50,265 bases of DNA from contig NZ_AOIL01000048.1 in NCBI RefSeq assembly GCF_000337595.1, positions 44,960-95,224 on the forward strand. Direction: 5' to 3'. Each line of letters starts with the position of its first letter. Within the stretch, counting starts at the first letter, position 1. Under the pieces are notes generated by a model. The model had not been told where the DNA came from. It ran no database searches and saw only the letters and a list, made by a program, of their open reading frames with translations. Positions 21,784-49,045 of this stretch are shown piece after piece. The DNA is from Natrialba taiwanensis DSM 12281. Lineage in GTDB: Archaea > Halobacteriota > Halobacteria > Halobacteriales > Natrialbaceae. A program made the position numbers and the translations under genes.

Positions 21784-22248
21784 CTAAACGGGTCCCAGCG
21801 CGGTGACGAGCCACGCGAGACCGATTCCCGCGAGTGCGAGGCCGAGATTCGCACCGGCATTGCCGACCGCGAGCAGCCGATCGCCGCGTTCGTACAACTG
21901 TACCGTTTCGACCGAGAACGACGAAAAGGTCGTGAACGCCCCGCAGAGACCGGTTCCGAGTAACTGCAGGACCGACTCGGTCGCACCCGCAAACATCGCA
22001 AGCGCGAAGGCAAAACTGCCCACGACGTTCACCAGCAGCGTCGGCCAGGGGAATCGGTCGCTCGAGAGCCGTTGATACACGCCGTAGCGCAACACCGCAC
22101 CGATCGCACCGCCGGTTCCCACGATGTGTGCAGGTTCGGGATCGAACGCGACCGCTGCGATACTGACTTCCGGGACGGATACCGACGCGAACGGTCCGCC
22201 GATCGCCGTCCAGAGTTCAGCAAGTGACGCCACGGCGGTCGCGCTCAT
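21784..22248 (-). CDS. crcB: Fluoride ion channel CrcB/Fluc, first subunit
   Basis: This 154-residue membrane protein has four transmembrane helices and the Fluc signatures GGAIGAVLRY, TLLVNVVGSF and GAFTTFSSFSVE (the last contains the phenylalanine box and central sodium site region). Fluc channels export toxic fluoride as dual-topology or paired subunits. About 35 extra residues precede the first helix, which is longer than usual. Its ATG overlaps the stop of the second crcB gene by 4 nt, so it is the downstream gene of the pair. Confidence 0.93.
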   Translation of the reverse strand: MSATAVASLAELWTAIGGPFASVSVPEVSIAAVAFDPEPAHIVGTGGAIGAVLRYGVYQRLSSDRFPWPTLLVNVVGSFAFALAMFAGATESVLQLLGTGLCGAFTTFSSFSVETVQLYERGDRLLAVGNAGANLGLALAGIGLAWLVTALGPV

Positions 22249-22664
22249 ACCGTCTCACCGCCGGTTGTCGCGGCGGCCGGATCGCCGAGTCGGCGGGCGA
22301 GTTCACGGCCGGCGAGGACGCCGGTAAAGCCGAGGCCGTAGTTGCCCAGGACGATGGCGACGAGCAGGAGGGGGGTGGACGCGAGTGCGGACTGGATGGC
22401 GAACGTGCTGTAGGTTGTCAGCGAAGAAAGGAAGCCGGTCGTGAAGACGACTCTCGATTTGCGTGCGACGAGGCCGGTGTATTGGGCTTCGTAGACGAGA
22501 AATCCGAGCACGAAACTGCCGATGACGTTGACGAGCAGGACAGACTGGACGTCGGAGAGCAGGCCCATCGCGAAGTACCGGAGATTCGCGCCGGCGAAGC
22601 CGCCGACGGTGATCAGTGCGAGCGTTTCGAGTCGAACGAGGGGGTGGGGCTGGGATGCTGCCAT
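22245..22664 (-). CDS. crcB: Fluoride ion channel CrcB/Fluc, second subunit
   Basis: This 139-residue four-helix protein has GGFAGANLRY, SVLLVNVIGSFVLGF and GFLSSLTTYSTFAIQ, the Fluc motifs. With its neighbour it probably forms a heterodimeric channel, as tandem crcB pairs do. The ATG at 22664 is chosen because the upstream in-frame extension (to 22730) is occupied by a fluoride-riboswitch fold. It is the first gene of the operon. Confidence 0.93.
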   Translation of the reverse strand: MAASQPHPLVRLETLALITVGGFAGANLRYFAMGLLSDVQSVLLVNVIGSFVLGFLVYEAQYTGLVARKSRVVFTTGFLSSLTTYSTFAIQSALASTPLLLVAIVLGNYGLGFTGVLAGRELARRLGDPAAATTGGETV

Positions 22665-22675
22665 GGCTGCGTAGT

Positions 22676-22735
22676 GGCAGGGACCGTCAGCCGGCGATCG
22701 GTGCCAGCGGTTGGGTCGGGCGGGCCCCATCGCCC
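22676..22735 (-). ncRNA. Fluoride riboswitch (crcB motif) in the crcB leader
   Basis: On the minus strand the RNA begins GGGCGAUGGGGCCCGCCC, nearly identical to the remembered Thermotoga petrophila aptamer start. Helix P1 pairs GGGCG (22731-22735) with CGCCC (22718-22722). The P1 loop GGGGCC (22723-22728) can pair as a pseudoknot with GGUCCC (22680-22685). Helix P3 pairs GCUGGC (22703-22708) with GCCGGC (22690-22695), followed by the conserved CUGA. In the Thermotoga RNA the pseudoknot strands are GAGGCC and GGCCUC, so one position covaries. It lies 12 nt before the crcB start, directly at the predicted transcription start. Confidence 0.88.
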
Positions 22736-22753
22736 GAAGGGGACGGTTACCGC

Positions 22754-22761
22754 GTTTAAAC
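22754..22761 (-). promoter_or_regulatory. TATA-like box for the riboswitch-crcB transcript
   Basis: GTTTAAAC, symmetric on both strands, is centred at 22757-22758. A start 22-27 nt downstream on the minus strand falls at about 22731-22735, exactly where the riboswitch fold begins. Confidence 0.65.
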
Positions 22762-22901: not shown

Positions 22902-23813
22902 ATGGACAGTGTCGAGGACGAGCGACGCGGGTTCCGACGGGCATCGTGGGTCAACGTCCTCGGCAACGTCGCGAAAATCGCAGTCGAAGGGGCTGCGGGA
23001 CTCGTCTTCGGGAGCGTCGCCCTGCTCGCCGACGCGGCACACTCGATCGCGGATCTCATCGCCAGCGTCGTCGTCTACATCTGGGGACAGAGTTCGTACG
23101 ACGAACCCGACGACACCCACCCCCACGGACACGACCGGATCGAACCGCTGACGGCGCTGTTCGTCGGTGCCGTCATCGCACTCCTCGGATTGAACCTGCT
23201 CTATCGTTCCGTCGAGGGACTGCTCACCGAGGTCGACGTCACCTTCAGCCCGCTGTTGCTCGGCTCGCTCGGCTTCGCGATCGTCGATATGTACCTCGTC
23301 TACCGGTACACGGTCGCGGTCAACGCAGAACTCGACTCGCCCGCCCTCTCGGCGCTGGCGGCGGACTGTCTCAACGACATCTACACGTCGCTGGCCGCCG
23401 TCGTCGGCATCATCGGCGTCGCGTTCGGCCAGCCCCAACTCGACCCCATCGCAGGCGGACTCGTCAGCCTGCTGGTCGTCTACCAGGGCGTCGAAATCGG
23501 TCGCGAAAACGTCGACTACCTCGTCGGTGCCGCCCCGACGCCCGAGAAGCGAACGGCCGTGCTCGACGTGCTCCGATCCCACCCCGACGTGCAGGGCATC
23601 CACGATCTGACCGTCTTCTACGACGGTCCCGTCCTCGAAGTCGAAGTCCACGTCGAGGTCGACGGCGAACTCCCCTTCCGGCGCGCCCACGACATCGAAT
23701 CTGAACTCGTCGATCAGCTCCGCGGACTCGAGGATGTCGGCGACGCGCACGTCCACCTCGACCCGTCCGGCATCGGCGAGTGGAAGGACCAGCCGGACGA
23801 ACTCGAACGGTAA
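22902..23813 (+). CDS. Cation diffusion facilitator (CDF) family metal exporter
   Basis: This 303-residue protein has about six transmembrane helices and a C-terminal cytoplasmic domain (VQGIHDLTVFYDGPVLEVEVHVEVD). Metal ligands are visible as HxxxD in helix 2 (H47, D51 in LADAAHSIAD) and DxxxD in helix 5 (D155, D159 in AADCLNDIY). A His-rich loop segment (DDTHPHGHDR) follows helix 2. CDF proteins export divalent metals by proton antiport; the mixed H/D site does not settle the metal. A candidate metal-operator sits just before the start. Confidence 0.9.
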   Translation: MDSVEDERRGFRRASWVNVLGNVAKIAVEGAAGLVFGSVALLADAAHSIADLIASVVVYIWGQSSYDEPDDTHPHGHDRIEPLTALFVGAVIALLGLNLLYRSVEGLLTEVDVTFSPLLLGSLGFAIVDMYLVYRYTVAVNAELDSPALSALAADCLNDIYTSLAAVVGIIGVAFGQPQLDPIAGGLVSLLVVYQGVEIGRENVDYLVGAAPTPEKRTAVLDVLRSHPDVQGIHDLTVFYDGPVLEVEVHVEVDGELPFRRAHDIESELVDQLRGLEDVGDAHVHLDPSGIGEWKDQPDELER

Positions 23814-48507: not shown

Positions 48508-49045
48508 GGTGGAGAGAGAGCCTGGCTGCCGCGGCGGGTGAGTCGGTAACGACTCGCCAGTTGACTGCGGGCACCGATCGGTGACCCGCGACGAACGTGA
48601 CTCCTCCTGTCGGGAGGGGCCACGCCCGCGAGGAAAGTCCCCCCACCTGTTCGGGCAGGTGACTGGACGCAAGTCCAGAGCGGGAGACCGCTGGCTCTGG
48701 AACAGAAACGACACGTCTCGGTCCGACCGATGATGCGTGCGACCCCGACCGCGAGGAAGGGCAGTTGACCCGCAGAGGGTGTGCAGTCTGGCCGTGGTTC
48801 GAACCCACGGGTCGCGACGGTTCGTGGTGTCCCATTGGGAGATCACACGGCAGACGGCTCGTGCCGTCGACCGCAAACGACGCGACCGGCTGCGCTCAGA
48901 CGACCGAGGACCGATGGAACGGCGAATCCTCACCGGTGCAAGTCCGTGCCGTGGTAGCCCGAACAACGCGGCCGCGCCGCAACGGCACGGATGCTCAGCC
49001 GAATGCCGGGACGAACAGAAGGGGGCTTACTCCTCTCACCGCTTT
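48508..49045 (+). ncRNA. rnpB: RNase P RNA
   Basis: The catalytic RNA that trims tRNA 5' ends is identified by its universal CR-I GAGGAAAGTCC (48630-48640) and the matching CR-V/P4 strand ACAGAAGGGGGCTTAC (49015-49030). The ends can pair as P1: GGUGGAGAG (48508-48516, one bulge) with CUCUCACC (49033-49040), and T residues follow (gctttt). Several hairpins between 48530 and 48630 indicate an enlarged P3 region. End points are inferred from the P1 pairing and promoter and may be off by some bases. Confidence 0.88.

Follow-up and report, generated by a model that had tools for sequence, protein, structure and literature searches.

Fluoride riboswitches form an established family, and their occurrence in Archaea is already known (PMC2864571). 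Those of Pseudomonas syringae and Burkholderia, which are named as translational (PMC13273304), have no terminator, and the ligand should turn translation on. In Archaea, a fluoride-responsive riboswitch that is presumed to act on translation has been described for Thermococcus kodakarensis, and as of 2021 it was the only natural archaeal riboswitch that had been tested (PMC8241225). T. kodakarensis belongs to a euryarchaeal lineage distant from the haloarchaea, and its aptamer precedes TK0513 and not directly a crcB gene (PMC4247193). Furthermore, synthetic theophylline riboswitches, in which a ligand-opened structure masks the AUG region, activate expression in Haloferax volcanii; in these constructs the Shine-Dalgarno (SD) sequence is masked as well (PMC8241225). 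Structured leaders have been deemed atypical for haloarchaea (PMC4983044), and within a partial coverage of the literature no pertinent publications on haloarchaeal fluoride riboswitches were found.

The window analyzed here is a stretch of 50,265 nt from Natrialba taiwanensis DSM 12281. Between its positions 22000 and 23500, the fluoride riboswitch (RF01734) was the sole match to any Rfam family. The aptamer is located on the minus strand (22671..22743) and covers positions 1-64 of the 64 model positions with 30.8 bits and an E-value of 3.2e-6; the covariance-model search named in the initial annotation as a check therefore gave a significant match. As the gathering score of RF01734 is 34, the aptamer lies just below it and is missed by default Rfam annotation. 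A standard Rfam scan of the window returned an archaeal RNase P RNA (RF00373, 123.5 bits, 48612-49037, plus strand) and a tRNA, and no more. In the whole genome, eight weak matches to RF01734 were obtained, of which the aptamer in the window alone is credible, the runner-up scoring 13.1 bits. The riboswitch had initially been placed at 22676-22761; it is indeed found there, but these bounds are shifted upstream by about 5-18 bases relative to the aptamer (22743-22671).

In the covariance-model alignment, the P1 stem-loop GGGCG-AUGGGGCC-CGCCC (22718..22735, minus strand) is formed by pairing of 22735-22731 with 22722-22718. Its loop carries the 5′ pseudoknot strand GGGGCC (22728-22723), which pairs with the 3′ strand GGUCCC (22680..22685, minus strand). 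The P3 stem-loop (GCUGGC/GCCGGC; 22690..22708, minus strand) is formed by pairing of 22708-22703 with 22695-22690. The conserved AACC (22712-22709) and UGA (22689-22687), both on the minus strand, occupy their expected places, and the conserved AACCG and GCUGA are present together with P1 and P3. This agrees with the fold first proposed for the leader, consisting of P1, P3 and a pseudoknot with conserved unpaired bases. The element has P1, P3, the pseudoknot, the AACCG and GCUGA core and the position before crcB in common with the RF01734 crcB RNA motif. The leader extends to 22665 and the AUG is located at 22664; the distance to the start codon is 25 nt from the end of P3 and 15 nt from the end of the pseudoknot, as had been calculated before.

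Downstream of the leader, two crcB genes are encoded on the minus strand, as had been suggested from the sequence and is borne out by Pfam (PF02537, cut-off 32.9 bits). The first one, crcB-1 (22245..22664, 139 amino acids, 53.5 bits), encodes a fluoride exporter subunit, and the second one, crcB-2 (21784..22248, 154 amino acids, 85.6 bits), starts within the stop of crcB-1, the two overlapping as ATGA when read directly from the sequence. The element is therefore located in the 5′ leader of fluoride resistance genes, which begin 15 nt past the pseudoknot. These are the sole crcB genes in the genome, and two crcB genes per genome are nearly universal across the family. Among named relatives, Natrialba asiatica and Natrialba aegyptia are the closest, and the CrcB-1 orthologue of N. 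asiatica is 97% identical. Adjacent crcB pairs usually encode heterodimeric Fluc channels, of which both subunits are required (PMC11139923), and CrcB-1 and CrcB-2 are probably the two subunits of such a channel. With one leader ahead of both genes, a riboswitch would govern both subunits, and translational coupling of crcB-2 to crcB-1 via the ATGA overlap can be assumed. Upstream of the operon, a divergent gene encoding a cation diffusion facilitator (CDF) transporter is located (22902-23813, plus strand). Taken together, the RNA that precedes the two genes of the crcB operon in the 5′ leader is confirmed by the covariance model as a fluoride riboswitch, for which binding of fluoride is predicted.

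The transcription start is less clear. The sequence GTTTAAAC (22754..22761, minus strand) is kept in two close relatives and contains TTTAAA (22760-22755) 20-25 nt ahead of P1. Transcription beginning about 27 nt from the centre of TTTAAA would initiate around 22730 and thereby truncate the aptamer within P1. GTTTAAAC is thus too close to P1 to serve as TATA box if the transcript is to contain the whole aptamer, and the start that had been predicted from it is unsupported. In most leaders, an AT-rich element is found about 31-39 nt before P1, which places the start a few nucleotides before P1. The clade of the window has either an unusual spacing between box and start or a different promoter.

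The conservation of the element was analyzed in genomes of the class and the order (292 and 392, respectively), with inspection of about 100 leaders from crcB genes that carry the aptamer. The same aptamer core was found in about 100 haloarchaeal crcB leaders, and RF01734 matched above the strict cut-off of Rfam in 43 of the 392 genomes. Within the family of the window, the core GGGCGAUGGGGCCCGCC - AACC/U - P3 - GCUGACGGUCCCU is almost invariant, whereas the P3 loop is hypervariable with inserts of 7 to >150 nt. P3 was therefore cut by hand to its six basal pairs ahead of the alignment. In 55 distinct trimmed leaders, 93.2% of the cells of P1, P3 and the pseudoknot hold standard pairs (P1 98.5%, P3 82.7%, pseudoknot 99.1%), compared to 87.5% for shuffles and 27-53% for slid partners. 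The pairing is hence kept in orthologous crcB leaders. Double changes occur in five of the six P3 pairs, and two pairs of the pseudoknot show massive compensatory change across Halobacteria, with column 10-42 being GC in 27, AU in 20 and CG in 3 leaders and column 12-40 being CG in 29 and UA in 25. The covariation claimed earlier for the pseudoknot is thus real at the level of the aligned leaders. Elsewhere in Halobacteria, the pseudoknot is formed by GGAGUC/GACUCC, GGCGUC/GACGCC or GGGGCU/GGCUCC.

In the haloarchaeal family, unlike in RF01734, the pseudoknot (GGGGCC/GGUCCC) is rich in GC and contains a conserved G-U pair, GCUGACGG replaces GCUGAUGA, and P3 spans 7 to >150 nt. The gathering cut-off is not reached by most leaders in this family, only four of the window's own type exceeding it in the two genome searches; presumably, the high GC content and the G-U pair of the pseudoknot as well as the long, hypervariable P3 are responsible. 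Surveys relying on this cut-off miss most members of the family and therefore undercount them.

The family also contains deviating leaders. In four of them from the genus of the window (L081-L084 in genomes G032, G163, G262 and G315), P3 is expanded by about 85 to >150 nt and contains repetitive GGTCGGCCGATCGGCC-like sequence, with the aptamer core being kept (GGCUAACGG in L081); the P3 of the window has 17 nt ahead of GCUGA. In seven crcB leaders of the same family (L118, L122, L123, L126, L127, L137 and L138), the aptamer is decayed or lost. Furthermore, a strong fluoride riboswitch of a type foreign to its family (L012, 53.9 bits) was identified before a crcB-like reading frame on contig C2 of genome G254; the examined crcB leaders in that genus are without aptamer, and a horizontal transfer is possible. 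Two other good riboswitch matches (L016 and L167) have no intact crcB frame directly downstream in the stretch examined, and the frames there are possibly pseudogenes.

In nearly all leaders, pseudoknot and AUG are separated by a linker of 10-20 nt that usually ends in (G/A)(U)CAGCC or CAGCU, abutting the AUG. The sequence (U)CAGCC is complementary to GGCUGA of the aptamer, which consists of the 3′ strand of P3 and the UGA junction. In the window, an alternative hairpin immediately ahead of the AUG, GGCUG(a)CG/CGCAGCC (22665..22692, minus strand), is the candidate expression platform; it was predicted with -10.3 kcal/mol for the isolated segment and is mutually exclusive with the base of P3 and the pseudoknot. 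Among 67 unique aptamer linkers, 34 have CAGCC directly before the AUG; this is the case in one of 21 aptamer-less crcB genes, in two of 3963 AUGs taken anywhere, and in none of 205 other gene starts, the latter being a rough set from the same genome (400 kb plus the window) chosen by codon composition and first AUG, which includes leaderless genes. With a looser complement to GGCUG at the same place, in which G-U pairs are allowed, 73% of the aptamer leaders, 1.5% of the background genes, 1.2% of any AUGs and 10% of the aptamer-less crcB genes are matched; about one quarter of the aptamer leaders is without a start-adjacent complement.

The longest of these hairpins have 8-9 bp and are formed by GGCUGAUG/CAUCAGCC in leaders with GCUGAUG (L009 and L163-L165) and by GGCUGACGG/UCGUCAGCC in L044, whose leader contains GCUGACGG. 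When the linkers were shuffled at the same composition, the hairpins became weaker, with 29 of 53 CAGCC-motif linkers being significant at p<0.05. Linkers without CAGCC also beat their shuffles, more weakly, with a combined p of 8e-6 in which kinship is ignored. In two leaders (L033 and L140), the linkers have lengths of 62 and 95 nt due to inserts of about 50-80 nt; the insert of L140, and less cleanly that of L033, folds on itself and leaves CAGCC close to its partner.

Evidence from two-sided covariation of this hairpin is only suggestive, as its aptamer half is almost invariant and the covariation is therefore thin. At position 6, the sole variable aptamer position, C-G was found six times, U-A twice and the mismatch C/A twice (Fisher p 0.13). 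In one genus (g32), GAUGAC is combined with GUCAUC before the AUG (L020 and L021) and GACGAC with GUCGUC (L042), which is one compensated change in a related hairpin. On the crcB tree, the aptamer state changes about nine times; in independent pairs the hairpin follows the aptamer in 2.4 of 5 and takes the opposite course in 0.2, which is not significant with so few pairs. When linkers were swapped between pseudoknot types, the native linker was strongly favoured for the type of the window and no preference was seen for the others (interaction p 1e-4), which is weak evidence as it contrasts two lineages.

Folding predictions were made with parameters for 37 °C and 1 M NaCl, which are poor for molar KCl. 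With the pseudoknot strands held, the predicted access of positions -7 to -1 rises family-wide by 0.36 (shuffled linkers 0.09), and by 0.14 (shuffled 0.04) when 18 nt of coding sequence are added. At the family level, an alternative structure that would pair the initiation region and exclude the aptamer is accordingly present in sequence and prediction. For the leader of the window itself, folding is ambiguous: with the coding sequence included, the minimum-energy fold differs from that of the isolated segment, as a UGCCA/UGGCA stem masks the AUG and GGCUG pairs with an in-gene CAGCC. In the free proxy as in the bound one, the AUG remains within the UGCCA/UGGCA stem, and the bound proxy does not release it.

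The comparison of leaders establishes the aptamer including P1, P3 and pseudoknot, the location of the aptamer ahead of crcB, and the presence beside the AUG of a linker that complements the 3′ part of the aptamer. From this arrangement, a function as translational ON switch is proposed. Without fluoride, the pseudoknot would be undocked and GGCUGA(CG) would pair with the (..CG/GU)CAGCC of the linker, so that a closed hairpin against the start codon would block a leadered mRNA that is free of an SD sequence. Fluoride together with Mg2+ would lock the pseudoknot as well as the base of P3, which would free the start region for translation of crcB-1, and translation of crcB-2 would follow via the ATGA overlap. 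This reading as a whole, a fluoride riboswitch acting on the crcB pair as a translational ON switch by exchange of a start-adjacent hairpin, is considered likely. Somewhat more cautiously, the balance also leans towards the general statement that a natural riboswitch with an SD-free platform is widespread in haloarchaea, in which the leader consists of the aptamer plus a linker of 10-20 nt, the 3′ strand GGCUGA of the aptamer pairs with the CAGCC abutting the AUG, and fluoride gates the access to the start codon.

SD-like tetramers were found in only 4 of 103 linkers, and SD sequestration was therefore rejected as a general rule and is limited to one genus. In this genus (g43; L017, L023, L024 and L170), a GGAG of the linker can pair with the CUCC of the 3′ pseudoknot strand, which gives a platform that looks classical and comes close to the usual logic. 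In contrast to the Pseudomonas syringae and Burkholderia riboswitches, 99 of the 103 haloarchaeal linkers are without SD-like sequence, and it is the stretch directly before the AUG that would be sealed.

Alternatively, CAGCC could enhance translation or provide some other context for initiation on leadered haloarchaeal mRNAs instead of being a switch strand, with the docked pseudoknot itself altering the access of the ribosome. This would explain why CAGCC remains at the AUG despite the linkers of 62-95 nt and why the motif is found in two leaders with a lost or decayed aptamer (CAGCC in L118, CAGCU in L126). However, it is unlikely given the absence of CAGCC from the 205 background genes and its rarity in aptamer-less crcB genes; furthermore, leaders without CAGCC complement the GGCUGA strand of the aptamer by different sequences, and the long linkers fold on themselves.

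A true riboswitch that acts on transcription, with fluoride keeping the polymerase from terminating early or pausing within the leader, seems rather improbable. The best known bacterial fluoride riboswitches do overlap intrinsic terminators (PMC2864571; PMC13273304), and terminators of this kind recruit the same aptamer strand as the alternative hairpin does. Between P1 and the AUG, however, no run of more than 4 uridines was found in 70 leaders, most of them having runs of 1-2, so that the terminator hairpin with U-run expected for a transcription-terminating riboswitch was not seen in these leaders; the short distance between pseudoknot and AUG and the complement abutting the AUG also speak against it. 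The initial annotation had allowed for control at translation initiation or by early termination, of which the former is favoured and the latter disfavoured by these data.

That the aptamer of the window is a weak, non-functional relic, as its score under the Rfam cut-off and the lost or decayed aptamers of other family members (L118, L122, L126 and L127) might suggest, is very improbable, since its core is the invariant core of the family and is kept by the closest relatives. Finally, a coding stretch with crcB-1 starting at the AUG at 22730 in the P1 loop, an in-frame AUG with an open frame in the window, is scarcely credible and was rejected, as of 76 leaders only 24 have the loop AUG in frame and only 5 have it open, and the sequence changes follow the RNA pairing.

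The preferred reading, control of translation by a start-adjacent hairpin exchange, thus concerns a known riboswitch family in a new lineage variant. The spread of the aptamer in Halobacteria, the hypervariability of P3 and the proposed hairpin at the start site, which is free of an SD sequence, were not found described in the partially covered literature and appear to be new. If the proposed switch is true, it would show, in a group that includes genetically tractable model species, how leadered mRNAs without an SD sequence can be controlled through strand exchange at the start codon, and it would provide a natural inducible element for halophiles.
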